From assembly GCA_026398815.1 (NCBI GenBank), contig JAPLSA010000032.1, forward strand, positions 1 through 64,000: 64,000 nt of DNA, in the 5' to 3' direction. Of the stretch, positions 26,201 through 43,775 are shown one piece after another. This DNA is from Gammaproteobacteria bacterium. GTDB lineage: Bacteria > Pseudomonadota > Gammaproteobacteria > Nevskiales > Nevskiaceae. Position 1 is the first letter of the stretch; each line of letters opens with the position of its first letter. Made by a program: the position numbers and the translations under genes. Under the pieces are notes generated by a model. The model saw nothing but the letters and a program-made list of their open reading frames with translations, did not search any database and had not been told where the DNA came from.

Positions 26201-27670
26201 TCAGACCGGCAGCGTGTAGTAGGCGATGCCGTAATCCTGCAGCGCGCCGGTGCGGCGCTCGCCGACGTGGTCGATGCGCACGCCGGTGCAGGCCGGTGAC
26301 AGGCCCGGCGCCGGACGACCTTCGTGCAGCGCCTCGTACTGGGCCTGCGCCAGCGGCACGTGGCTGGCGAGCGCACCGGCCAGGTGGATGCGCTTGGCGG
26401 CGTCCTGCCAGCCCGGCACCACGCGCGCCGGAATCGCTTCCGAGGCATCACCGCTGCCGTAGCCGATCAGCAGGATTTCCCGGCCGGCCAGGTCGCGGCC
26501 GGCATTGGCGGCTTCCTCGAGACCCGCCGCCAGCCAGCCCGGCAACGCCGCCGAGTACAGGTTGCCCATCGCCATCATCGACTTGGCACCCAGGCGCATC
26601 TTGTCGTCGACCACCGCCTTGTAGGTCGGCGTTTCGCGGAAGGCCTTGAGCAGTGCGGCGGTCAGCGGATACGGCTCGGCGACGGTGCCGTCGAAATCGG
26701 CCTCGAAGGCGCGGGTCGGCACGGTGGCCATTTCGGCGGCGACGGCGGCCGGGTCAATGCCGGCGCGCAGGCAGTAGTCGTTCAACTCGTCGACGCCCAG
26801 CGCGCCATCGGCGCCGAGCGCGAACAGGTAGCCCATCGCCCAGGCCGTCACCGGCATCTTGTGGTACGGCCGGTGCATGAATACCGCTTCCAGTTCGCGG
26901 AAGTAGCGGCCACGCGCGCCGCCGTGCTTGGTCAGCAGCTGGTCGAGTGCGGACATGGTCTCGTCGACATAGCAGGCCGTCGAATACTTGCCGTTGAACA
27001 CCGGGAAGTCCGACAGGCGGCCGCTGACGCTCGGCGTCTGGCCGGCGTAGCGCTGGAACGGCTTGCGGAAGTCCAGGCCGCGGAAGGTCGAGGCGCTGCC
27101 GGCATTGCGCAGGTCGAGCGCGACGATCTTCGGGTCGCGCTCCAGCAGCATCGCCACGGCGCCGGCGCCCTGCGTCGGCTCACCGCTCGAGCCGCGCTCG
27201 TACTCGGCGATGTCGGCGGCAACCACCACGGCCTGGCGGTCGTAGCCGTCGTGGGCGAGGTAGCGGATCGCGCCCTTGATGCCGTAGACGCCGGCCAGGC
27301 AGGCCTGCTTGAACTCCGGCACCTCGCAGTCGCGGGCGATGCGCGGCTTGCCCTTGGCGGCCAGCGCGCGATCGACGAGGCCGCGGACGATCACCGCGCC
27401 GGTGGCGTTGTCGACGCTCGACTCGGTACCCAGCGCCAGATAGCCGATCTTGGCCGGGTCGACCGCATTGCGGTCGATCAGCGCCAGCACCGCGTTGGCG
27501 GCCATTGTGTAGACGTCTTCCTCGATACCCGGCACGCGGAAGCTTTCGCCGATCACCGCGCGGGTCTTGTCCCAGCTGTTGCCGGTCCAGTCGCACCATT
27601 CGCGCAGGTCCACGCGGTACGGCGGCACGTAGGCTGCAAAAGCGCTGATGCCGAACTCTGCCTTGCTCAT
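26201..27670 (-). CDS. mvaS: Hydroxymethylglutaryl-CoA synthase
   Basis: This enzyme condenses acetoacetyl-CoA with acetyl-CoA to HMG-CoA, the first committed mevalonate step. The 489-residue thiolase-fold protein has the general-base Glu83 in GTESSVD, the acyl-accepting Cys124 in EFKQACLAG and the histidine near 266 in FMHRPYHKM. Bacterial MvaS is commonly near 390 residues; this protein is about 100 longer, with inserts in the second half. The start ATG at 27670 follows GGAGAAGAGAGAG. It is the distal gene of the minus-strand mevalonate/hopanoid operon. Confidence 0.92.
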   Translation of the reverse strand: MSKAEFGISAFAAYVPPYRVDLREWCDWTGNSWDKTRAVIGESFRVPGIEEDVYTMAANAVLALIDRNAVDPAKIGYLALGTESSVDNATGAVIVRGLVDRALAAKGKPRIARDCEVPEFKQACLAGVYGIKGAIRYLAHDGYDRQAVVVAADIAEYERGSSGEPTQGAGAVAMLLERDPKIVALDLRNAGSASTFRGLDFRKPFQRYAGQTPSVSGRLSDFPVFNGKYSTACYVDETMSALDQLLTKHGGARGRYFRELEAVFMHRPYHKMPVTAWAMGYLFALGADGALGVDELNDYCLRAGIDPAAVAAEMATVPTRAFEADFDGTVAEPYPLTAALLKAFRETPTYKAVVDDKMRLGAKSMMAMGNLYSAALPGWLAAGLEEAANAGRDLAGREILLIGYGSGDASEAIPARVVPGWQDAAKRIHLAGALASHVPLAQAQYEALHEGRPAPGLSPACTGVRIDHVGERRTGALQDYGIAYYTLPV

Positions 27671-27704: not shown

Positions 27705-28838
27705 TCACGAGTGGACTTCGTAGGTGCGGTTTTTCCATTTGGAGCGCACGCCGCGCCAGCTGCGCAGCGCGGAACTCCAGGTCATCGCGAGGTACAGCGC
27801 CCCGATCAGGGGTGAGGCCAGCGCCCAGACTGGCGACAGGCCGTAATAACGCAAGGTCGGCACATAGGCCGCGCACATCGCCAGCAGCGCCGCCGCCGCC
27901 AGCCACGAGCCCTGCGCCAGCGCCACCAACGGCAGCCAGTAGGCCATCGCGAACAGCGCGGTGACGACCAGCAGCAGCAGGTTCGAGTAGCGCAGCTGGG
28001 TAAAGGCCGAGCGGGCGACCATGTCGTGCACGCTCTTCAGGGTGCCGTAGGGGCGCAGGGAAATGACGCCGCGGGACAGGCCGATCCAGGTCTGGTGGCC
28101 GCCATCCTTGATCCGCCGGGCCAAGGTGCAGTCGTCGATCAGCGCGTCCTTCAGACACTCGAAGGCGTTGACCTTGTGCAGGGCGGCAGTATCGACCAGT
28201 ACGCAGCCGCCAGCGGCGGCAGCCACCCACTTCGACGGCGAGTTCGACACCGCGAACGGGTAGATCAGCTTGAAGTAGTAGACGAAGGCGGGCAGCAGCA
28301 GGCGATCCCAGAACGAGGTGCGGCGCAGGTCGGCCATCAGGGACACGAAGTGCGCGCCGGTCGCCCGCTTGTGGGCCAGCAGCGCCGCCAGCATGCCGGG
28401 TTCAAGCGCGATGTCGGCGTCCAGCAGACACGTCATCGCGGTCTGGACCCGGCCCTTGCCCTGCTCCAGCGCCCACAGCTTGCCGGCCCAGCCCTTGGGC
28501 AGCGGCTGACCGGAAATGACCTCGACATTCGGATAGCGGCGGGCGATGTCGCCGGTGCCGTCATCGGACTGGTCGTCGATGACGACGATCCTCAGGTCGT
28601 GTGCCGAGCCCTCGCGCTGGGCCTGCAGGCTGTCGAGCGTGCGCTGGATGACCTCGGCCTCGTTGCGTGCCGGAATCAGCACGGTGACCTGGTCCAGATC
28701 AGCCAGGCCCAGCCGCGAAGCCGGCCCGGGAGCGGCCGGCTCGAGCTGCTCGCGGACGCTCCACGGCCGCCACGGCGTCAGCCACAGGCCGAACCACATG
28801 ACAGCCGCAGGAACGGCCAACCAGAACGCGAAATCCAT
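27705..28838 (-). CDS. hpnB: Hopanoid-associated glycosyltransferase HpnB
   Basis: This 377-residue family 2 glycosyltransferase has an N-terminal membrane helix and a GT-A domain with VTVLIPARNEAEVIQRTLDSL. It also has the first acidic motif VIDDQSDDGT, the acceptor-region LLDADIAL, and LIDDCTLARRIKDGG. Three C-terminal hydrophobic segments end the protein. HpnB occurs in hopanoid clusters, but its acceptor has not been established. It lies between hpnH and mvaS on the same strand. Confidence 0.88.
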   Translation of the reverse strand: MDFAFWLAVPAAVMWFGLWLTPWRPWSVREQLEPAAPGPASRLGLADLDQVTVLIPARNEAEVIQRTLDSLQAQREGSAHDLRIVVIDDQSDDGTGDIARRYPNVEVISGQPLPKGWAGKLWALEQGKGRVQTAMTCLLDADIALEPGMLAALLAHKRATGAHFVSLMADLRRTSFWDRLLLPAFVYYFKLIYPFAVSNSPSKWVAAAAGGCVLVDTAALHKVNAFECLKDALIDDCTLARRIKDGGHQTWIGLSRGVISLRPYGTLKSVHDMVARSAFTQLRYSNLLLLVVTALFAMAYWLPLVALAQGSWLAAAALLAMCAAYVPTLRYYGLSPVWALASPLIGALYLAMTWSSALRSWRGVRSKWKNRTYEVHS

Positions 28839-28890: not shown

Positions 28891-30039
28891 TCAGTGGCCG
28901 GCCTTTTCGGTTGCCGGCTTGGCCTTCTTCTTCACGGTGATCGCGCTGACCGGCACCTTGACGGCCGAGGCATCGGCGCGGTTGCCGTACAGCACCGGCA
29001 GGTCGGGGGCCATCGGGCCATCGATGTCCGGGCCGAGCAGTGCCACCTTGGCCGCCTTCAGCGGGTTGGCGAAGGTGTCGTTGACCGCCGTGCCCTCGAA
29101 GCCGCAGTGCGCCATGCAGTTATCGCACTTCGGGTTGCGGCCGACGCCGTAGGCTTCCCAGTTGGTGGTTTCCATCAGCTCCTTGTAGGAGCTGCAATGG
29201 CCTTCATCAACCAGCAGGTAGCAGGGCTTCTGCCAGCCGAACACGTTGTAGGTCACCGTGCCCCAGGGCTCGCACTGGTAGGCCTGGTTGCCGGCGATGA
29301 AGTCCAGGAACATCGGCGACTGGTTGAACTTCCACTGGCTCTTGCGCTCGCGGCCGATCTTGAACACGTCACGGAACAGCTGCTTCGACGCGGTGCGGCC
29401 CAGGAACACGTCCTGGCGCGGCGCGTGCTGGTAGCTGTAGCCCGGCGACACGGTGATGCCCTCGATACCGAGGCTCATCGCGTAGTCGAAGAAATCGGCG
29501 ATTTCCTGCGGCGGTTCGCCGGAGAACAGCGTGCAGTTGATGGTCACGCGGAAGCCGCGCTCGACGCACATCTTGATCGCCTCGACCGCCTTGACGAACA
29601 CGCCTTCCATGCACACCGACTCGTCATGGCGCTTTTCCATGCCGTCGAGATGGATCGACATGGTCAGGTACGGGCTCGGGGTGTACTCGTCGATGTGCTT
29701 CTTCAGCAGGATCGCGTTGGTGCACAGGTAGACGAATTTCTTCATCTTCACCAGGCCGGCCACGATCTGCGGCATTTCCTTGTGAATCAGCGGTTCGCCG
29801 CCCGGGATCGAGACCATCGGCGCGCCGCATTCCTCGGCAGCGCGCAGCGCCTGCTCGACGCTGACGCGCTGCTGCAGGATGTCCTTCTCGTAATCGATCT
29901 TGCCGCAGCCGGCACAGGCCAGATTGCACTGGAACAGAGGCTCCAGCATCAGCACCAGCGGGTAGCGTTTCTCGCCTTTCAGCTTCTTGCCGAGAAGGTA
30001 GCGCGCGACGGTGACCTGCTGGATAAGCGGAACGCCCAT
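28891..30039 (-). CDS. hpnH: Adenosyl-hopene transferase HpnH (radical SAM)
   Basis: HpnH joins 5'-deoxyadenosine to diploptene to give adenosylhopane, the first step of C35 side-chain synthesis. The 382-residue protein has the 4Fe-4S motif CNLACAGC (Cys38, 42, 45), SIPGGEPL and the HpnH-typical CGKIDYEKDIL. A Cys-rich C-terminal stretch contains CEPWG and PKCDNCMAHCGFEG. GGAG precedes the ATG at 30039. It lies 129 bp after idi on the same strand. Confidence 0.95.
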   Translation of the reverse strand: MGVPLIQQVTVARYLLGKKLKGEKRYPLVLMLEPLFQCNLACAGCGKIDYEKDILQQRVSVEQALRAAEECGAPMVSIPGGEPLIHKEMPQIVAGLVKMKKFVYLCTNAILLKKHIDEYTPSPYLTMSIHLDGMEKRHDESVCMEGVFVKAVEAIKMCVERGFRVTINCTLFSGEPPQEIADFFDYAMSLGIEGITVSPGYSYQHAPRQDVFLGRTASKQLFRDVFKIGRERKSQWKFNQSPMFLDFIAGNQAYQCEPWGTVTYNVFGWQKPCYLLVDEGHCSSYKELMETTNWEAYGVGRNPKCDNCMAHCGFEGTAVNDTFANPLKAAKVALLGPDIDGPMAPDLPVLYGNRADASAVKVPVSAITVKKKAKPATEKAGH

Positions 30040-30168: not shown

Positions 30169-30765
30169 TTATGCCAAAGACGCCGCCGGCTGCCGCGCAT
30201 ACACGCCGGCATGCTGCGCCCGGATGCGCGCCCATTCGATCTTGAACCACGGCGTGAACTGCTCCGGCCGGGTTTCGATCTCGGCATCGAGCGCGTCTGG
30301 CGCGATATAGCGCACCGCCGAGATCTCGTTGGCGTTGACCACCGGCTGCACGTCGCTGCGCCCGGCGTAGACCCAGCACAGTTCGTGCTCGGCGCCGGTT
30401 TCGTCGAACTGCGCCTGGTACTGGAACTTGAACAGGTAGTCGAAGCGGCACTCGAAGCCGAGTTCTTCCTTCAACCGCCGGTGGATCGCGATGTCCATGG
30501 TCTCGCCGCGACGCGGATGCGAGCAGCAGGTGTTCGACCAGAACTGGCCCCACAGCCGCTTGCCAGCCGCGCGCCGCTGCAGCAGCAGTTCGCCGTCGCT
30601 GTTGAACACGAACAGCGAGAACGCCCGGTGCAGCGTGCCGTGGCCGACATGAGCCTCGGCCTTCGGCAGGAAGCCGACCTCGTTGTCCTGCTCGTCGACC
30701 AGGATCAGCGGCTCGTCGTCGAACGAGACGATCTGGTGTCCGGTATTCAGCGTCGTGTTGTTCAT
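30169..30765 (-). CDS. idi: Isopentenyl-diphosphate delta-isomerase, type I
   Basis: Idi interconverts IPP and DMAPP, which is essential when isoprenoids come from mevalonate. The 198-residue Nudix-fold protein has TLHRAFSLFVF, the catalytic cysteine in NTCCSHPRRGE, RRLKEELG (the Nudix-like glutamates) and a late AVRYI... EFTPWFKIEW-type ending. ATG at 30765 lies 13 bp after the reductase-kinase fusion gene. No flavin-type (type II) isomerase is present. Confidence 0.95.
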   Translation of the reverse strand: MNNTTLNTGHQIVSFDDEPLILVDEQDNEVGFLPKAEAHVGHGTLHRAFSLFVFNSDGELLLQRRAAGKRLWGQFWSNTCCSHPRRGETMDIAIHRRLKEELGFECRFDYLFKFQYQAQFDETGAEHELCWVYAGRSDVQPVVNANEISAVRYIAPDALDAEIETRPEQFTPWFKIEWARIRAQHAGVYARQPAASLA

Positions 30766-30778
30766 GCCTGCCGTGTTG

Positions 30779-33106
30779 TCAGCCAATGCGCACCTCCATG
30801 CCCGAATAGCCGGCGTCGCGCAGCGCGCCGATGACTCTTTCGGGGTGTTCCGGGGCCAGCGCGATGATCGAACCGCCACCACCGCCGCCGGTCAGCTTGG
30901 CACCGATCGCGCCCTGCTCGCGGCAGATCTGCACCATTTCCTCGATTTCCCAGCTCGACACGCGCAGCGCGTTGAGCAGGCCGTGACAGACATTCATCAG
31001 ATCGCCGAGCCGCTCAAGCTGGTAGTTCTGGATCGCCTCGACGCCCTGGAGCGTCAGCGCGTCGATCTGCCGGAAGATGTTCTCGTACAGCTCCGGGTTC
31101 TTCTGCCAGGCCGTGCGCACGCCGCCGACGGTCTTGGCGGTCAGGCTTTCCTTGCCGGAAATGCCGACCACCAGCGGAATCGGCCGGGCCAGCGACAGGG
31201 TCTGCATCAGCAGCGGCTTGCCTTCGTGGGCACGCCGGTACAGCAGCGGCTTGCCGTAGGTGGCCACCGTGTTGTCGATGCCGCTCGGCGTGCCGTGGGC
31301 CACCTTCTCGCACTCGAAGGCGAGCTGGTTGATCTCCTCGTCGGTGTGGCCGAGCTTGAAATGGGTGTCGATGGCGCGGATCACCGCCACCGCCATCGCC
31401 GCCGAGCCGCCCAGGCCCATGCCGCGCGGCACGTTCGGGAACACCTCGATGCGCAGGCTCTTCTCGGTCAGGCCGAGCTTGTCGAAGACGATGCCGAGGC
31501 TGCGCTGGAAAGAATCGCGGTGCGCCGGGTCCTTGTGCAGGCGCGACTCGACGCCCCAGCGCGGAATGATCAGATCGACGCCCGGATTGGCGCTGTTGCG
31601 GTCGCCGTCCTGCACCGAGGCTTCGATCGCCAGCGGCACCGGCGCGGCGATGGCATGGCTGCCGTAGACCACCGCGTGCTCGCCGAGCAGGATGATCTTG
31701 CCGTGGCCCTGCGAACGCGGCGCGTTCGATATCGTTTCCGGCTCGCCGGCTTCCTGGCGCGCGGCCTTGCGCACCTGCACGACGATTTCCTGCGCTTTCC
31801 AGATCTTGATGTCGCCGCCTTCGATCAGCCGCTCGACCACGGTCTCGAAGATTTCCGGCGACGCGCCGGCAGCCAGCGCCACCGAGCGCGCGTGCAGGGT
31901 CATGTGGCCCTGCTGGATGCCTTCGGTGGCCAGCGCGCGGATCGCCGAGAAGTTCTGCGCCAGGCCGACCGTGCCCATCACCATCGCCAGTTCGCGCGCC
32001 GAACGGGCGCCGAGCAGGCGGTGGTTGAGCGCCACCGTCGGGTTCGACTGCAGCGGCCCGCCAACGGTGCCGACCTTCATCGGGATCTCGATCTCGCCGA
32101 CCAGCGCGCCATCGTCGCCCTTGTACCAGCGGGTCAGCGAGGTGTAGCGGCCGCTGCGCGCGGCATAGGCGTGGGCGCCGGCCTCGATCGCCCGCCAGTC
32201 GTTGCCGGTGGCCAGCGCGACGGCATCGATGCCGTTCATCACGCCCTTGTTGTGGGTCGCGGCGCGATACGGATCGACACTCGCGAAGTCGGTGGCCAGC
32301 ACGATGCCGTCGCGCACTTCCTCGCCGGAAAAGCCCTTGCCGGCCAGCTTGTCGACCGGGATCACGCACTTGGCGCGGACCAGCGAGCGATCGGTCAGGT
32401 TCGACAGGATGCGCAGGAACACCTTGCCGCCGGTGACCTGCTCGACCAGCGAGGCCAGGCCCTCGCACATGGTGTTGACCAGGTTCGCGCCCATCGCGTC
32501 GCAGGTGTCGACGACCAGATGGACGATCAGCATGTCGCCGTGGCCGTCCGGTCGCGGGTAGACGTGCAGTTCGACGTCGCGAGCGCCGCCACCGCGCGCC
32601 ACCATCTGCGGGTGCAGCGAGTTGGCAAGGTTCAGCAGCTCCGCCTTGCGCGCCAGCAGCGCTGACTGCGCGCGCGGCACGTTGGGGATGTCGACCACCT
32701 GGATCTGGCCGATCAGCAGCGACTCGTCCATCTCGGCAGTGAAGCCGCCGGAGGCGCGGACCAGCTTGGCGCAGGACGAGAGTGCTGCGACGATCGACGG
32801 CTCCTCGACCACCAGCGGCACCACGTAGTCGCGGCCATTGATCAGGAAGTTCAGGCCGAGGCCTACGGGCAAGCCCATCACGCCGACGACGTTCTCGATC
32901 ATCTTGTCGGCGCGGTGCAGCGACAAGGTGTGATCGCCGGAGATCATCTGCTGGTAGTCGGCTTCCGACACCCAGCCGCGCTCGCGCATCAGCCGCACGC
33001 GATCGCTGACCGACAGCTTGTAGAACTCCGGGATTCGCGACTTGTCGGGCGATGGGTTCGACGCCGGCACCGCGCCGGGCGCGGCAGGCTGGGCTTCTGC
33101 AGTCAT
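30779..33106 (-). CDS. Bifunctional HMG-CoA reductase (class II) / mevalonate kinase fusion
   Basis: The single 775-residue frame has two complete enzymes. Residues about 20-445 form a class II HMG-CoA reductase with the glutamate in VEEPSIVA (about 102), Lys287 in THNKGVM, Asp303 in TGNDWR and the histidine His401 in QQGHMTL. This half reduces HMG-CoA to mevalonate. After a linker (about 448-466), residues 467-775 form a GHMP mevalonate kinase with GKIILLGEHAVVYG, PRGMGLGGSAAM and TGGGGGGS. There is no stop or frame change between them. The gene overlaps the phosphomevalonate kinase stop by 4 bp (ATGA). Confidence 0.94.
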   Translation of the reverse strand: MTAEAQPAAPGAVPASNPSPDKSRIPEFYKLSVSDRVRLMRERGWVSEADYQQMISGDHTLSLHRADKMIENVVGVMGLPVGLGLNFLINGRDYVVPLVVEEPSIVAALSSCAKLVRASGGFTAEMDESLLIGQIQVVDIPNVPRAQSALLARKAELLNLANSLHPQMVARGGGARDVELHVYPRPDGHGDMLIVHLVVDTCDAMGANLVNTMCEGLASLVEQVTGGKVFLRILSNLTDRSLVRAKCVIPVDKLAGKGFSGEEVRDGIVLATDFASVDPYRAATHNKGVMNGIDAVALATGNDWRAIEAGAHAYAARSGRYTSLTRWYKGDDGALVGEIEIPMKVGTVGGPLQSNPTVALNHRLLGARSARELAMVMGTVGLAQNFSAIRALATEGIQQGHMTLHARSVALAAGASPEIFETVVERLIEGGDIKIWKAQEIVVQVRKAARQEAGEPETISNAPRSQGHGKIILLGEHAVVYGSHAIAAPVPLAIEASVQDGDRNSANPGVDLIIPRWGVESRLHKDPAHRDSFQRSLGIVFDKLGLTEKSLRIEVFPNVPRGMGLGGSAAMAVAVIRAIDTHFKLGHTDEEINQLAFECEKVAHGTPSGIDNTVATYGKPLLYRRAHEGKPLLMQTLSLARPIPLVVGISGKESLTAKTVGGVRTAWQKNPELYENIFRQIDALTLQGVEAIQNYQLERLGDLMNVCHGLLNALRVSSWEIEEMVQICREQGAIGAKLTGGGGGGSIIALAPEHPERVIGALRDAGYSGMEVRIG

Positions 33107-34197
33107 GCTTCTTCACTCTCCGTGGACGTCACCCGCAGACCGGTCGGATCGACGGTCAGCGGCACATGGGCGAATCCGGCGGCCGCCAGCCGGGAGACGG
33201 CGGCCGCGAGATCGTCCGGGTTCATTGCAAACACCACGCCGACGTCGCCGCCGCCGGCCCCGCAAGGCTTGTAGACGACGCCGTCATGGGCGTGGGCGAT
33301 GGCGCCGATCGCCTCGTGTTCGGTCGACCAGATGCTGACGCCGCTGGCCGCGCCGAGCGCACGCAGCTCTCGGGCATAGCCGCCGGCATGGTCGATGAAG
33401 GCGGCCGCGTCGCCGTGCTCGATCGCCGTGACGGCGGCTTCGGCGGTCGCGGTCAGCGTGTCCATGCGGGCGCGGTACTCGGCCTCATGGCTGGCGCTCT
33501 GGTGCCGCCAGTCGCGCAGGATCGACAGGAACTTCGGCGTCGAAGCCGAGCGGCCGGACCAGATGAAGGCGCTGTGCACGGCCGCCGGCCAGGCCAGCGG
33601 CCGGGCCACCGGCGCGGCATCTCCGCCCGGCAGCCGGTAGGCCAGCACGCCGCCGTAGAGACTGGTCGCCACGTCCACGCCGCTGCCCTGCCCGCCCTGG
33701 AACTGGCGGTGCAGGCCGAGCAGCCGGTGCAGCCAGACGGCGCGATCGCGCGCCGCCTGATGATGCCCCGCCTGCGTGACCAGCGCCGAGGCCAGCGCCA
33801 CGGTCAATGCGGCACTCGACCCGAGCCCGAGCTTGGCGCGGCCGGCGCCGCTGCCATCGAAGAACGCCGAGGTGTCGAGCGCCAGGTCGAAGCCGCTGCC
33901 GGCGGCCACGCCGAGCTGCTCGGCAGCCAGCCCGCGCAGCACCTCGTCGACCAGGTTCAGCCGCGCCGCCGCGTCGCCGGCTGCGGACCAGTCCGGCAGT
34001 CCGTCGGCGCCGATGGCAAAGCGCAGCGGCGCCTCGAGCACGTCCGGCGCCCGCGCCTCGCAGCGGGCGTCCGTGCGCGGCTTGACCTGCACCGTGGCCC
34101 GGCGGTCGACGGCCATGGTGATGGCCGGCGCGCCTTCCAGCACCGCGTATTCGCCGAGCAGCACCAGCTTGCCGGGCGCGCTGGCGACGAGCGTCAT
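33103..34197 (-). CDS. Phosphomevalonate kinase (GHMP family)
   Basis: The enzyme phosphorylates 5-phosphomevalonate to the diphosphate. The 364-residue GHMP kinase opens ASAPGKLVLLGEYAVLEGAPAITMAVDRRA. It has the ATP loop KLGLGSSAALTVAL, a GQGSGVDVATSLYGG motif specific to phosphomevalonate kinases, and C-terminal KPCGAGGGDVGVVF. It is coupled by ATGA overlaps to mvaD upstream (34194-34197) and the fusion gene downstream. Its position between those two enzymes supports the assignment over mevalonate kinase. Confidence 0.92.
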   Translation of the reverse strand: MTLVASAPGKLVLLGEYAVLEGAPAITMAVDRRATVQVKPRTDARCEARAPDVLEAPLRFAIGADGLPDWSAAGDAAARLNLVDEVLRGLAAEQLGVAAGSGFDLALDTSAFFDGSGAGRAKLGLGSSAALTVALASALVTQAGHHQAARDRAVWLHRLLGLHRQFQGGQGSGVDVATSLYGGVLAYRLPGGDAAPVARPLAWPAAVHSAFIWSGRSASTPKFLSILRDWRHQSASHEAEYRARMDTLTATAEAAVTAIEHGDAAAFIDHAGGYARELRALGAASGVSIWSTEHEAIGAIAHAHDGVVYKPCGAGGGDVGVVFAMNPDDLAAAVSRLAAAGFAHVPLTVDPTGLRVTSTESEEA

Positions 34198-35222
34198 GCC
34201 GCGACCGCGTCGGCGACCGCGATCCGCGTCGCCGGGCCGCCGAGTCCGGTTTCGAGCACGTTCAGCACGCCGGGAATCTCGCGCAGCGCAGCAGCCACCT
34301 GGGTCGCCGCCGACGGCAGGCAGATCGCCTTGACCTGCGGGCCAGCATCGACGGTGAAGAACACCGGCACGCCCGCCGCCCGCAGCCGCCGCACTTCGTG
34401 CATCGCCGCCATGGTCGCCGCGTTCCAGTACAGCAGGCCCGGCCGGGCCGCCATCGCCAGCGCGTGCATCTTCAGGCAGCTGAATTCGGAGATGTCGGCT
34501 AGTCGTTCGAAATCGCGAGCGACGATCGCCGCGCGGGCTTCGGCCAGATCGGCTTCCTGGGTGTCGATCCAGGCCCGCTGGTACGGACTGGTGTCGGCCG
34601 TGCGGTTCATGCCCTCGGTCGAGCCGATGGCCTTTTCGGCCGTCGAGGTGATCGCCACCGCGACCCGCAGCGGCCAGGCCGCCGCCTCGAGAATCGGCCG
34701 GGCGACCGAATCCTCGCCATCGGCGCGGTCACCGAGCGCCCATTCGACATAGCCGCCGAAGATCGAGCGCGACGCCGAACCGGAGCCGCGTCTGGCGAAT
34801 TCCGACAGCGTCGCCGGCGGCAAGCCCAGCCCCAGTGCGGCATCGGCGGCCAGCACCAGCGCAGCGAAACCGGATGCCGACGACGCCAGCCCGGCGCCGG
34901 TCGGGAAGTTGTTGTAGCTGGTCACCTCGGCGCGCAGGCCGGTGCTGGCGCGGGCGCGCAGCAGGTCGAGACAGGCGCTGACCTTGCGCAGCTGCTTGGC
35001 GTCCTCGCGGCCGTTCAGGCGCAGGCGGTCGGCCGGCAGCTCGGCCGCGAAGCGGACCGTCGTGCGCGTCCACAGCGTGTCGAGCGTGATCGACAGCGAG
35101 CCGACGACCGGCAGGTTCAGCGGCACGTCGCGCTTGCCCCAGTACTTGATCAGCGCGATGTTGGGATGTGCCTGGGCGGCAGCACAAAGGTCGGCGTCAA
35201 GCGTCGTGGACATGACGCTCAT
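34194..35222 (-). CDS. mvaD: Diphosphomevalonate decarboxylase
   Basis: MvaD converts 5-diphosphomevalonate to isopentenyl diphosphate with ATP. The 342-residue product has AHPNIALIKYWGKRD near the N-terminus and SLSITLDTLWT. The phosphate loop and catalytic region reads YNNFPTGAGLASSASGFAALVLA, followed by ARRGSGSASRSIFGGYVEW. It is the first gene of the minus-strand mevalonate operon. Starts at 35222 or 35213 (second ATG) are both possible; neither has a strong ribosome-binding site. Confidence 0.94.
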   Translation of the reverse strand: MSVMSTTLDADLCAAAQAHPNIALIKYWGKRDVPLNLPVVGSLSITLDTLWTRTTVRFAAELPADRLRLNGREDAKQLRKVSACLDLLRARASTGLRAEVTSYNNFPTGAGLASSASGFAALVLAADAALGLGLPPATLSEFARRGSGSASRSIFGGYVEWALGDRADGEDSVARPILEAAAWPLRVAVAITSTAEKAIGSTEGMNRTADTSPYQRAWIDTQEADLAEARAAIVARDFERLADISEFSCLKMHALAMAARPGLLYWNAATMAAMHEVRRLRAAGVPVFFTVDAGPQVKAICLPSAATQVAAALREIPGVLNVLETGLGGPATRIAVADAVAA

Positions 35223-35530: not shown

Positions 35531-36685
35531 TTGCTCTGGCCCTTGTCCGTTTTGCCGATCCTTCCGACGCTGGGCCACGCATTGCTGCTAGCGACCGCTG
35601 CCTACGCGGTACTGGCGCTGGCCACCCGCCAGCAGTGGCGCCGCCGCGCCACCACCATTCCGCAGCCGCCGGCCGGGGCCCCGGTCAGCGTGCTGAAGCC
35701 GCTGGCCGGCAGCGAGCCCCGCCTGTACGAAAACCTGCGCAGCTTCTGCCTGCAGGACCACCCGCAATTCCAGGTGCTGTTCGGGCTGCACGCGGCCAGC
35801 GACGCCGCGCTGGCCGTGGTCACCCGGCTGGCGCGGGAATTCCCGGCGCTGGATATCGGCATCGTCATCGACGAGCGCAGCCACGGCATCAATCTGAAGG
35901 TCGCCAACCTGATCAATCTGCTGCCGCATGCCCGCCATGACTGGCTGCTGCTGGCCGACAGCGACATCGATGCCCCGCCGGACCTGCTGCGCCGGGCCAC
36001 GGCGCCGCTCGCCGACCCCGGCGTCGGCGTGGTCACCTGCCTGTACGGCGGCCATCCGGTCGGCGGCCTGTGGTCGCGGCTGGGCAGCCAGTTCATCGAC
36101 GACTGGTTCGCCGCCGCCGTCTGTGTCGGCCGCGCCTTCGGCGCTCACCGGCATTCGTTCGGCGCCACGCTGGCGCTGCGCCGCGAAGTACTGGTCGCCA
36201 GCGGCGGCTTCGAGGCGCTGTCCCGCCATGTGGCCGACGACTGGTGGCTGGGCGAACTGAGCCGGCGCGCCGGCTTTCGCACGGTGCTGTCGGAATGCGA
36301 AGTCACCACCGACGTGATCGAAGTGCGGTTCGCCGATCTCGCCGCCCGCGAACTGCGCTGGCTGCGCTCGATCCGGCGCATCGAACCGCTCGGCTACGCC
36401 TTCACCTTCATCTGCTTCACGACGCCGGTGGCCGCCGCCGGCTGGCTGCTGGCCGGCGGTGGCGCGGCCGCCACGGCGCTGGCGCTGACCGCGCTCGCGG
36501 CACGCCTCATGCTACGGTTTGATGGCCGACGCCCGCCGGCTACACGGCTGGTCGGGGCGCTGCTGGTGCCGCTGCGCGACAGCCTGTCGCTGCTGCTCTG
36601 GGCGCTGGCCCTGGCCGGCAACGGCGTGCACTGGCGAGGCCGTCCGATGAAGATCGCGCCCACCGCTCCCCGCCTCCGCAGTTGA
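35531..36685 (+). CDS. hpnI: Hopanoid N-acetylglucosaminyltransferase HpnI
   Basis: HpnI adds N-acetylglucosamine to bacteriohopanetetrol. The 384-residue family 2 glycosyltransferase resembles ceramide glucosyltransferase. It has an N-terminal membrane helix, VSVLKPLAGSEPRLYENLRSF, LLADSDIDAPPDLL, HSFGATLALRREVL, the ADDWWLG motif and a QxxRW-like LRWLRSIRR. C-terminal membrane segments follow. The start is a TTG at 35531 because no in-frame ATG is available nearby; a few residues either way are possible. It leads a plus-strand hpnIJKL operon. Confidence 0.9.
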   Translation: MLWPLSVLPILPTLGHALLLATAAYAVLALATRQQWRRRATTIPQPPAGAPVSVLKPLAGSEPRLYENLRSFCLQDHPQFQVLFGLHAASDAALAVVTRLAREFPALDIGIVIDERSHGINLKVANLINLLPHARHDWLLLADSDIDAPPDLLRRATAPLADPGVGVVTCLYGGHPVGGLWSRLGSQFIDDWFAAAVCVGRAFGAHRHSFGATLALRREVLVASGGFEALSRHVADDWWLGELSRRAGFRTVLSECEVTTDVIEVRFADLAARELRWLRSIRRIEPLGYAFTFICFTTPVAAAGWLLAGGGAAATALALTALAARLMLRFDGRRPPATRLVGALLVPLRDSLSLLLWALALAGNGVHWRGRPMKIAPTAPRLRS

Positions 36686-36696
36686 AGGACCGCCGC

Positions 36697-38151
36697 ATGC
36701 CTGCCCCCGATTCAGCCCCGTTGAAAACGCTGTTCCTGCAAGCGCCATCGTTCGATGGCTTCGATGGCGGCGCCGGCTCGCGCTACCAGGCCAAGCGCGA
36801 GATCAAGAGCTTCTGGTACCCGACCTGGCTCGCCCAGCCGGCCGCGCTGGTGCCCGGCAGCCGGGTCGTCGATGCGCCGGCCGACGAGCTGTCGGTCGAC
36901 GCCACGCTGGCGCTGGCCAGCGACTACGCGCTGGTCATCATCCATACCTCGACGCCGTCGTTCCCGACCGATGCCAAGTTCGCCGAGCTGCTGAAAGCGC
37001 GCTGTCCGGACATCGTCATCGGCATGGTCGGCGCCAAGGTCGCGGTCGATCCGGCCGGCTCGCTGAAGGCCTCGACGGCGATCGATTTCGTCGCCCGCGA
37101 GGAGTTCGACTACACCTGCGCCGAACTGGCCGCCAACCAGCGGCCATGGGCCGAGATCACCGGCATCAGCTACCGGCTGCCCGATGGCCAGCTGGCCCAC
37201 AACCCGCCGCGCGCGACGATCGAGGACATGGACGCGCTACCGTTCGTGGCACCGGTCTACCAGCGCGATCTGACCATCCGCAACTACTTCATCGGCTACC
37301 TGCAGCACCCGTACGTGTCGCTGTACACCGGCCGCGGCTGCCGTTCCAAGTGCACGTTCTGCCTGTGGCCGCAGACCGTCGGCGGCCACCGCTACCGGGT
37401 GCGTTCGGCCGCCAACGTGATCGCCGAGGCGGCCTGGATCAAGGAGAACATGCCGGAGGTGAAGGAGCTGATGTTCGACGACGACACCTTCACCGATTCC
37501 TCGAACATGGCGCGTGTCCACGAGATCGCCATCGGTCTCGGCAAGCTGGGCTGGACCTGGAGCTGCAACGCCAAGGCCAACGTGCCGTACGAGTCGCTGA
37601 AACTGATGAAGGAGAACGGCCTGCGGCTGCTGCTGGTCGGTTACGAATCCGGCGACGACCAGATCCTGCACAACATCAAGAAGGGCCTGAAGACCGACAT
37701 CGCCGAGCGCTTCACCGAAGACTGCCGGCGCCTCGGCATCGTCATCCACGGCACCTTCATCCTCGGCCTGCCGGGCGAGACGCGCGACACGATCGAAAAG
37801 ACCATCGAGTGGGCGAAGGCGATCAACCCCCACACCATCCAGGTCTCGCTGGCTGCACCCTACCCCGGCACCACGCTGTACAAGCAGGCGGTCGACAACG
37901 GCTGGCTGGCCGAGAACGAGGCGGTGAACCTGGTCAATTCGCAGGGCGTGCAGCTGGCGGCGATCAGCTATCCGCACCTGTCGAAGGACGAGATCTTCGC
38001 GGCGATGGAAGTGTTCTACCGGCGCTTCTACTTCCGGCCGTCGAAGATCTGGGAAATCGTCCGCGAGATGCTCACAGACTGGGACATGATGAAGCGGCGG
38101 CTGCGCGAAGGGGTCGAGTTCTTCCGCTTCCTGCGCGCCCGCGCGGCCTGA
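36697..38151 (+). CDS. hpnJ: Hopanoid radical SAM protein HpnJ (cyclitol-forming)
   Basis: HpnJ contracts the sugar of the glucosaminyl hopanoid to the cyclitol ether. The 484-residue product has an N-terminal cobalamin-binding-like region (about 10-160), the radical SAM cluster CRSKCTFC (near residues 215-222) after YTGRG, and FDDDTFT. The C-terminal region has FYRRFYFRPSKI. ATG at 36697 has GAAGGA seven bases upstream; the TTG 15 bp earlier lies inside hpnI. It is 11 bp from hpnI and 29 bp from hpnK. Confidence 0.93.
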   Translation: MPAPDSAPLKTLFLQAPSFDGFDGGAGSRYQAKREIKSFWYPTWLAQPAALVPGSRVVDAPADELSVDATLALASDYALVIIHTSTPSFPTDAKFAELLKARCPDIVIGMVGAKVAVDPAGSLKASTAIDFVAREEFDYTCAELAANQRPWAEITGISYRLPDGQLAHNPPRATIEDMDALPFVAPVYQRDLTIRNYFIGYLQHPYVSLYTGRGCRSKCTFCLWPQTVGGHRYRVRSAANVIAEAAWIKENMPEVKELMFDDDTFTDSSNMARVHEIAIGLGKLGWTWSCNAKANVPYESLKLMKENGLRLLLVGYESGDDQILHNIKKGLKTDIAERFTEDCRRLGIVIHGTFILGLPGETRDTIEKTIEWAKAINPHTIQVSLAAPYPGTTLYKQAVDNGWLAENEAVNLVNSQGVQLAAISYPHLSKDEIFAAMEVFYRRFYFRPSKIWEIVREMLTDWDMMKRRLREGVEFFRFLRARAA

Positions 38152-41717: not shown

Positions 41718-43775
41718 TCAGGCCGAAGCGCGGCGGCCGCGCAGCTGGCGATAGCGCGCCAGCGCCCACAGCGGAAAGTAGGCGTCGTAGCCGTAGTACT
41801 TCATGTAGAACACGCGCGGGAAGCCCGGCGCGTTGTGGCCGGGGTCATGCCACAGGCCTTCGTGGCGGCCTTCGGAATGCTGGTTGGCGATCAGCCAGTC
41901 GATGCCGGCGGCGACCGCCGGATGCTCGACGCCGTGCACGGCCATCAGCGCCAGCAGCGCCCAGGCGGTGCTGTTCGGGGTCGAGATCAGCTCGCTGCCG
42001 TTCGGGCCGGGACGCGGCATGGTGCCGCTCAGCTTCGGGTCGAGATAGGTGTCGTTGGTCTCGCCCCAGCCGCCGTCCGGGTTCTGCCTCGATTCCAGAT
42101 AGCGGATCGCCCGGGCGATGTACGGCGCCTCCGGCTTTTCGCCGACCAGCGCCAGCCCGGCCAGTGCCGACCAGGTGCCGTAGATGTAGTTGGTGCCCCA
42201 GCGGCCCCACCAGGAGCCGTCCGGCTGCTGCGCCTTCTTCAGGTAGCGGATCGCGCGGGTGATCGCCGGGCGATCCTGCGGCCGCTTCAGCACGCCGAGA
42301 TAGGCCAGCACGCGGCCGGTGACGTCCTCGGTCGGCGGATCGAGCATCGCCTTGTGGTCGGCGAACGGGATCTCGTTGATCCAGTAGTGCGTGTTGTCGG
42401 CGTCGTAGGCGCCGAAGCCGCCGTTCTTCGACTGCAGGCCGAGCAGCCACTCGGCGGCGCGCGACACGGCCTCGTCGTTGTGGTTGCTGCCGTTCGGCTC
42501 GCGGCCGACCAGGTGCATGACGCCGGCGACGACCGCCGTGTCATCGAGATCCGGGTAGTACTCGTTCCAGTACTGGAACGCCCAGCCGCCCGGTCGCAGC
42601 TTCTTGTTCGGTGCGGCTTCGATCCAGTCGCCGACGTGGTCGAGGATCTGCCGGGGCCGCAGCCAGTTCTCGGCGCGCTTCAGTGCTTCGCGGGTCTTGG
42701 CGCGGCTCGAGCCGTCCGGCGAATCGGCGTGCAGCAGCGCCATCATCGCCCAGCCGGTGTCCCAGGTCGGCGACAGGCAGGGCTGCACGTAGGCGCTGCC
42801 CTCAGGCGTGAACTGGATCAGCTTCTGGATCGATTTCAGGCAGGTCGCGCGCAGCGGGTGTTCGGCCGGGTAGCCGAGCAGCGCCAGCGCCTCGTAGGCA
42901 TTGACCATCGCCGGGAAGATGCCGTTGATGCCGTCCTCGCCGTTGAGGCGAGCGACGAACCAGTTCTCGGCCCGCTTGATCGCCAGCTCGCGCAGCTTCT
43001 TCGGCGCGAAGCGGTCCATCGTCCGGCCGAACTTGTCGAGCCCGAGGAACACCTTGGCGAACAGGGTGTCGTTGCGGAACCACTGTGTTTCCAGCTCCGG
43101 CGGCCGCACGAACAGCTCGGCGATCTGCACGCCGCGCGGGTTCTTGGCCGTCGCCTTCAAGCTGCACAGCACGAACAGCGGCACCATCACCGCACGCGCC
43201 CAGGTCGCGACCTTGTAGATCTCGAACGGGAACCAGCGCGGGAACAGCACGATCTCCACCGGCACGTACGGCGCGGCCGTCCACGGCACCTGCTGGAACA
43301 TCGCCAGCAGGATGCGGGTGAAGACATTGGCCTTGGCCGCGCCGCCCAGCGCCAGGATCGCCGCACGGGCGCGCACCATGTGCGGCGCGTCTTCGTCATC
43401 GCCGGCGCACTTCAGCGCGTAGTAGCTCTTGACCGTGCACGACAGGTCGATCGCGCCCGGCCGGTCGTAGTTGCGGTACTGCGGCCAGCCGCCGTGGCCG
43501 CCGTCCGGGCCGTCGAGCACCTGCTGGGCGCGGATGAAGGTCGCGATCTTGGCCTGCAGCGACTCGTCGATCTCATCCATGAAATGCATCATCAGGATGT
43601 ATTCGGCCGGGATCGTGCAGTCGGCCTCGAACTCGAAGCACCACTCGCCGTCCGGCTTCTGCAGCTTCAGCAGCGCTTCGCGGGCAGCGTCGATCGCCTG
43701 ATGCAGGCGGCTTTCGGCTTCGGCGGCGAGCTGGCGCGGATTGCGTCGGAGACGGACGACAGTCGGTGCGTTCAT
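41718..43775 (-). CDS. shc: Squalene-hopene cyclase
   Basis: Shc cyclises squalene to hop-22(29)-ene and hopanol at the inner membrane. The 685-residue product has repeated QW motifs (KPDGEW, SKNGGF, QPDGSWWGRW, NPDGGW) and the catalytic acid motif DLDDTA near residue 408. It also shows the family stretches GGHGGWPQYRN and YVPVEIVLFPRWFPF. The length is typical of the bacterial enzyme. It is co-transcribed with the squalene synthase gene upstream (67 bp) and hpnG downstream. Confidence 0.97.
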   Translation of the reverse strand: MNAPTVVRLRRNPRQLAAEAESRLHQAIDAAREALLKLQKPDGEWCFEFEADCTIPAEYILMMHFMDEIDESLQAKIATFIRAQQVLDGPDGGHGGWPQYRNYDRPGAIDLSCTVKSYYALKCAGDDEDAPHMVRARAAILALGGAAKANVFTRILLAMFQQVPWTAAPYVPVEIVLFPRWFPFEIYKVATWARAVMVPLFVLCSLKATAKNPRGVQIAELFVRPPELETQWFRNDTLFAKVFLGLDKFGRTMDRFAPKKLRELAIKRAENWFVARLNGEDGINGIFPAMVNAYEALALLGYPAEHPLRATCLKSIQKLIQFTPEGSAYVQPCLSPTWDTGWAMMALLHADSPDGSSRAKTREALKRAENWLRPRQILDHVGDWIEAAPNKKLRPGGWAFQYWNEYYPDLDDTAVVAGVMHLVGREPNGSNHNDEAVSRAAEWLLGLQSKNGGFGAYDADNTHYWINEIPFADHKAMLDPPTEDVTGRVLAYLGVLKRPQDRPAITRAIRYLKKAQQPDGSWWGRWGTNYIYGTWSALAGLALVGEKPEAPYIARAIRYLESRQNPDGGWGETNDTYLDPKLSGTMPRPGPNGSELISTPNSTAWALLALMAVHGVEHPAVAAGIDWLIANQHSEGRHEGLWHDPGHNAPGFPRVFYMKYYGYDAYFPLWALARYRQLRGRRASA

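Follow-up and report, generated by a model that had tools for sequence, protein, structure and literature searches.

A natural in-frame fusion of predicted class II HMG-CoA reductase and mevalonate kinase domains in a gammaproteobacterial mevalonate gene cluster

Are HMG-CoA reductase (HMGR) and mevalonate kinase (MK), which catalyze consecutive steps of the mevalonate pathway, joined by nature in one bacterial polypeptide, and if so, what would the joining do? The question is raised by a 64,000-nucleotide stretch of gammaproteobacterial DNA, referred to here as the window, where positions 30779-33106 of the minus strand hold a single frame of 775 amino acids that begins with ATG, ends with TGA and has no internal stops. 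The domain order in the protein is class II HMGR, linker and MK, as follows.

30779..33106, minus strand: HMGR::MK fusion, 775 amino acids, stop included (Pfam and NCBIfam)
31766..33037, minus strand: class II HMGR domain, residues 24-447, including the C-terminal part with H401 (TIGR00532, 1qax, AlphaFold/Foldseek)
31715..31765, minus strand: linker, residues 448-464 (low model confidence at 452-460, variable sequence)
30782..31714, minus strand: MK domain, residues 465-775 (TIGR00549, and 2hfs by sequence and Foldseek)

The preliminary description had read this frame as a full class II HMGR with the catalytic Glu, Lys, Asp and His, followed after a short linker by a complete GHMP mevalonate kinase, and the domain searches bear out both halves of that reading. 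Pfam matches HMG-CoA_red at residues 35-406 and the N- and C-terminal GHMP kinase domains at residues 539-617 and 690-767. Against NCBIfam, the HMGR half scores 421.6 bits with TIGR00532 (curated cut-off 259.95) and the MK half 238.3 bits with the mevalonate kinase model TIGR00549 (curated cut-off 163.05). The thiolase family is absent among the Pfam and NCBIfam matches of the protein, and the architecture is thus not that of MvaE. The linker spans about 17 residues, where about 20 had been estimated, and in the 80 named loci described below the gap between the two domain matches ranges from 16 to 30 amino acids. Mean identity to the window protein is 13% in the linker, compared with 71% and 64% in the two domains, and because its sequence is not conserved, the linker looks more like a flexible tether than part of a tunnel.

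We made two alignments that include the window protein, A1 with 19 loci out of the 30 fusion loci L003-L032 and A2 with 62 out of the 80 named loci. E102, K287, D303 and H401 of the HMGR half align with residues 83, 267, 283 and 381 of Pseudomonas mevalonii HMGR (1qax; 413.6 bits for the HMGR half), which we take to be its catalytic residues, and all four are invariant in the 63 fusions of A2 and in 103/103 fused HMGR rows. Similarly, 12 motif positions of the MK half (470, 475-477, 564, 566, 568, 600, 611, 740, 742 and 745), whose roles we assume, are invariant in 63/63 fusions. The MK half matches Leishmania major MK (2hfs) with 157.7 bits. An AlphaFold model of the fusion monomer consists of two folded halves (mean pLDDT 82.7, pTM 0.52), and pLDDT falls below 50 at the N-terminus (1-23), at 66-79, at 396-401, which includes H401, and in the linker at 452-460. 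In a Foldseek search the 50 matches listed, out of 713, were all HMGRs or MKs, none with both domains; among them were P. mevalonii HMGR for the HMGR half and 2hfs for the MK half. The linker exits directly from the HMGR C-terminal domain, both in the 1qax alignment and in the AlphaFold model, and this domain is mobile in known class II HMGRs.

The same two-domain order, which the preliminary description had proposed to trace through sequence databases, occurs in records from several phyla. Both domains lie in one frame in 80/80 named-genome loci, the best 80 of 586 relatives, which excludes a sequencing error at the junction and upholds the proposal of a natural in-frame fusion. Named carriers by strain include Dyella, Rhodanobacter lindaniclasticus, Wenzhouxiangella, Marinobacter gelidimuriae and Litchfieldella; Nevskia is also among the carriers, and metagenome-assembled genomes (MAGs) with the fusion are labeled Acidobacteriota, Calditrichota, KSB1 and Nakamurella. 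Of the close named matches (92-97% identity), three are MAGs of Nevskia and the fourth is a Gammaproteobacteria MAG, and on this basis we assign the window to Nevskia. A fusion match of at least 690 residues was found in 31/61 related genomes, the source genome included, and 16/18 genomes of the window's genus are among these 31. One of the 31 (G003, locus L016) has an in-frame TAG within the HMGR half, away from the junction, which is either a base error or a broken gene. One further genome, outside the 31 (G009), shows the HMGR end only, at a contig edge where the fusion state is not visible. The fusion is uncommon in the wider samples, occurring in 10/369 genomes of the class (nine full-length and one cut at a contig edge) and 2/398 genomes of the phylum, with the source genome counted in each. 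Plasmid records gave 58 matches, none with one place covering at least 80% of the query.

We then considered the genes that surround the fusion in the window, assigned as follows.

26201..27670, minus strand: HMG-CoA synthase-like (HMGS), divergent (PF01154/PF08540 over cut-off; TIGR01835 185.6 bits, below 360.35; PDB matches to HMGS)
27705..28838, minus strand: HpnB-like hopanoid-associated glycosyltransferase (TIGR03469 365.2 bits, just under the cut-off of 379.25)
28891..30039, minus strand: hopanoid gene HpnH (TIGR03470 515.7 bits, over cut-off)
30169..30765, minus strand: isopentenyl-diphosphate isomerase type 1 (IDI) (NF002995 and TIGR02150 over cut-off)
33103..34197, minus strand: probable phosphomevalonate kinase (PMK) (TIGR01220 101.3 bits, below the cut-off of 165.7; PDB 3k17 'Lin0012 protein' 68.8 bits)
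34194..35222, minus strand: diphosphomevalonate decarboxylase (MDD) (TIGR01240 292.1 bits, over the cut-off of 171.35)
36682..38151, plus strand: hopanoid gene HpnJ (TIGR03471 815.4 bits, over cut-off)
41718..43775, minus strand: squalene-hopene cyclase (TIGR01507 719 bits, over cut-off)

PMK, MDD and IDI adjoin the fusion as a mevalonate gene cluster, with MDD and IDI over their cut-offs and PMK below. The genes are tightly spaced: the PMK stop overlaps the start codon of the fusion (ATGA), and the IDI ATG lies 13 bases beyond the fusion stop. The IDI family models were run on a longer frame, 30169-30882. A promoter scan returned 0 promoter-like sites, compared with 0.6 expected in shuffles. 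HMGS (26201-27670) and PMK (33103-34197) both score well under the curated NCBIfam cut-offs, yet their position fits. The fusion also sits amid hopanoid genes; HpnA, HpnG and HpnI are tentative labels.

This arrangement is conserved across the named loci, where the genes usually run from the decarboxylase through phosphomevalonate kinase and the fusion to the isomerase. A script placed IDI just downstream of the fusion in 77/80 loci; in the other three, IDI slightly overlaps the fusion end (L042), IDI is absent (L103) or the stretch lacks room (L047). PMK and MDD both lie upstream in 63/80 loci; of the others, 7 are on stretches too short to include them, and 10 have enough upstream sequence yet lack at least one of the two genes. 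Hopanoid-type genes were matched in 38/80 fetched stretches. Stretch length and the use of tblastn with the window proteins affect all of these counts. In seven loci (L087, L091, L092, L102, L106, L111 and L113) IDI follows the fusion and neither PMK nor MDD was recognised upstream despite room; similar other genes occupy the upstream side in L091, L102 and L106. In these seven, the genes for the later pathway steps may lie elsewhere or have diverged too far to be recognised.

We asked if carriers of the fusion also encode the methylerythritol phosphate (MEP) pathway. Among the 61 related genomes, dxr was matched in 0/32 carriers (the 31 with a long match plus G009) and in 27/29 non-carriers, 26 of the 27 over cut-off, and ispG/GcpE gave the same counts (0/32 and 27/29) with different exceptions; because every carrier belongs either to genus g1 with g10 or to family f6, the cases are not independent. 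Neither dxr nor ispG was matched in the source genome or in the 17 genus members searched. One genome (G010), 88% complete, has neither the fusion nor dxr or ispG. Outside the window's order the fusion and Dxr can coexist. In the class sample dxr was found in 1/10 carriers (G099), and Dxr was over cut-off in 6/23 named carriers tested (of the 80), namely Dokdonella, Litchfieldella, Marinobacter, R. lindaniclasticus, KSB1 and a Natronospirales MAG, which leads us to reject a universal either/or rule between fusion and MEP pathway. The rest of the 23 comprise four Dyella genomes with weaker full-length matches, one with a short weak match and 12 with none. The four Dyella matches (G807-G810, loci L048-L051) reach 204-256 bits, against a cut-off of 315.7, and Dyella L044-L046 gave no Dxr match. 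Going by these matches, dependence on the mevalonate route is most likely for Nevskia, whereas some other carriers have both routes.

A second, stand-alone HMGR is encoded in the source genome (G000 C11:98223-99326, L001); among NCBIfam models it scores best with the class I-like TIGR00533, though below that model's cut-off. An HMGR match is also present in 11 members of the order that have dxr and lack the fusion, so such copies of HMGR are probably not the main isoprenoid supply.

The cofactor helix of HMGR bears on the direction of the reaction. NADH-using enzymes carry the motif Dx(V/L)xxxL and NADPH-using enzymes (H/Y)xSxxxR (PMC13370337), and changing D154 of the R. pomeroyi HMGR to Lys gives NADPH use (PMC12292504). 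The NADH motif is absent from the fusion, where H165 and R171 replace the Asp and the Leu. R. pomeroyi D154 presumably corresponds to P. mevalonii D146. At the P. mevalonii D146 position, His is found in 102/103 fused rows and Asp in 12/12 P. mevalonii-like unfused rows. The last motif position, R171, is kept in 103/103 fused rows, and the middle position is Ser in 0/103 and Asn, Gln, Lys or Arg in 102, such that two of the three NADPH motif positions match in the fused HMGRs. A further unfused group of 13 rows has Ala, Leu or Ile at the Asp position and keeps the Arg, and the pattern of a helix lacking Asp and keeping Arg is therefore not exclusive to fused HMGRs. With moderate confidence, and from the helix residues, we predict that the fused HMGR prefers NADPH.

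To place the fused enzymes among HMGRs, we removed duplicates from 173 HMGR rows, which left the 128 used for the cofactor-helix counts; clustering at 85% then left 72. A quick tree built from these 72 has the 49 fused HMGRs as one side of a branch (SH-aLRT 99). The grouping recurs in a repeat tree that left out L142, the longest row and a very long branch; L123 is also long. The named loci are the best 80 of 586 relatives, a sample in which unfused members inside the fused group could be missed. Among the unfused rows, ten P. mevalonii-like HMGRs lie closest to the fused group, and a Dxr search that covered 4 of these 10 genomes matched in 4/4, one weakly. The tree contains no Gram-positive HMGRs, and the cofactor-helix change could have gone in either direction. 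Pairwise distances in the HMGR half track those in the MK half (correlation 0.84, 1953 pairs from 63 sequences), and the two halves of the fusion diverge together.

In a tree of the full fusion, Nevskia fusions group with those of Dyella (support 100), with Dyella placed among Nevskia; family f6 stands beside Calditrichota and KSB1 (support 99); and Acidobacteriota rows lie among gammaproteobacterial ones. The HMGR-only tree agrees for Dyella and part of f6, but in it two f6 rows branch separately, close to the base of the fused HMGRs. A single clade for the window's order was not rejected by the AU test (p 0.052 for the HMGR half and p 0.114 for the full fusion), and with these values horizontal transfer within the order is no more than suggestive. 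A broader history, in which HMGR::MK is a family of single origin, kin to the P. mevalonii-like HMGRs and with an NADPH-type helix, whose cassette spread between phyla and replaced the MEP pathway, for example in Nevskia, and whose tether couples the two catalytic cycles, is conceivable as a whole and rather doubtful.

Taken together, the domain, neighborhood and genome comparisons make it highly probable that the protein is a bifunctional biosynthetic enzyme, a reductase probably using NADPH with a flexibly tethered kinase, that would convert HMG-CoA to mevalonate-5-phosphate and feed the local genes for isopentenyl diphosphate (IPP) and dimethylallyl diphosphate (DMAPP). The N-terminal class II HMGR would reduce HMG-CoA to mevalonate, probably with NADPH, and the C-terminal kinase, held by its flexible linker to the mobile C-terminal domain of HMGR, would phosphorylate mevalonate to mevalonate-5-phosphate. 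The adjoining PMK, decarboxylase and isomerase would complete the route to IPP and DMAPP, which in the source genome would feed isoprenoids, hopanoids probably among them. The gain from fusion would presumably lie in a fixed 1:1 dosage and local concentration: immediate use of mevalonate could pull the reversible, CoA-releasing reduction forward with no need for a physical tunnel. Closer coupling of the two enzymes is plausible.

Other explanations would read the same locus differently. That two genes were joined by an assembly or frameshift artefact has a negligible probability: we found no support for it, the TAG of G003/L016 lying inside the HMGR half and off the junction, and we reject it given the single frame in many independent assemblies, with 80/80 loci fused, including the strain-named records of Dyella, Marinobacter gelidimuriae and Litchfieldella. 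A role in mevalonate catabolism, in which the HMGR half would work in reverse, like the P. mevalonii enzyme, with the kinase as a side branch, could draw on the NCBIfam label 'degradative' carried by TIGR00532, the model that the HMGR half matches, and on the P. mevalonii-like nature of the nearest unfused HMGRs, with Dxr matched, once weakly, in all four of their genomes searched. Nevertheless, the fusion clusters with PMK, MDD and IDI, dxr and ispG are unmatched in the window's genus, and the NADH-type Asp is absent from the cofactor helix. Given the biosynthetic neighbors and the missing Asp we hold a degradative role to be unlikely, and the full catabolic scheme very improbable.

The remaining two explanations concern what the joining itself does. 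In true substrate channelling, which the preliminary description had raised as a possibility, a fixed domain arrangement would pass mevalonate between the sites without bulk mixing, and both the placement of consecutive steps in one chain and the retention of the fusion in records of several phyla would suit it. The linker, however, varies in length (16-30 amino acids) and in sequence (13% identity), and the monomer model, which by its nature cannot exclude channelling, has no confident overall arrangement, with its pTM of 0.52 and a linker pLDDT below 50. Mevalonate, moreover, is not an intermediate that we know to be unstable or toxic, and we regard channelling as distinctly improbable. Somewhat less so, and still unlikely, is a regulatory or dosage device in which one translated unit fixes a 1:1 stoichiometry and feedback on the kinase acts on the reductase or the reverse. 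Here the linker follows straight on from the C-terminal domain of HMGR, so that kinase occupancy could bias closure of that domain, and gene spacing is tight on either side of the fusion; on the other hand, operons of separate genes already yield near-equal dosage. We retain the bifunctional, flexibly tethered biosynthetic enzyme as the preferred reading.

The preliminary description had allowed that such a fusion might already be well characterised in many bacteria. The fusion is indeed widespread, but literature searches judged by titles, abstract openings and term counts among the matches listed, a body of literature with subscription journals mostly outside it, returned no paper describing a reductase-kinase fusion. 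A preprint builds a network of 6,924 bacterial HMGR nodes, and the word 'kinase' never occurs in its main text (PMC13370337). Most mevalonate genes were reported in an acidobacterial genome of subdivision 22, in an article where 'fusion' is confined to the reference list (PMC5462960). A 2026 review names the Enterococcus faecalis thiolase-HMGR fusion and IspDF (PMC13001223). HMGR::MK is apparently uncharacterised within the literature searched, and domain databases may list the architecture.

The fusion matters in several respects. Within the mevalonate pathway HMGR is called rate-limiting, and the critical steps named as engineering targets are HmgR, Mvk and Idi (PMC13001223); a natural HMGR-MK fusion with IDI adjoining is a ready-made part, and with it one can ask directly if bringing enzymes close together increases flux. 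For annotation, the point is that a gene with biosynthetic neighbors matches an HMGR model whose name is 'degradative'. Because the Nevskia genomes searched gave no dxr or ispG match, drugs against the MEP pathway would be expected to be ineffective on Nevskia, and inhibitors of class II HMGR might act.

Known systems resemble the fusion in part. MvaE of Enterococcus faecalis joins HMGR to acetoacetyl-CoA thiolase, which acts two steps earlier, whereas in the window protein HMGR forms the N-terminal half and its partner, MK, catalyzes the step that follows. The class II HMGRs of P. mevalonii, Delftia acidovorans and Burkholderia cenocepacia are among the closest solved relatives, about 50% identical by Foldseek, and P. 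mevalonii-type solved HMGRs have their catalytic residues in common with the fused HMGR. These three enzymes use or prefer NADH (PMC12292504, PMC13370337) and are not fused to MK, while the fused enzyme lacks the NADH-type Asp. For the kinase half, the closest solved relatives by sequence are the MKs of L. major (2hfs, about 32% identical) and Staphylococcus aureus (2x7i), which share the GHMP motifs and, unlike the fusion, are free-standing. IspDF is likewise a bacterial fusion in an isoprenoid precursor pathway (PMC13001223), but it belongs to the MEP pathway and joins non-consecutive steps. Beside these systems, HMGR::MK is a real, intact and widespread variant of pathway-enzyme fusion.
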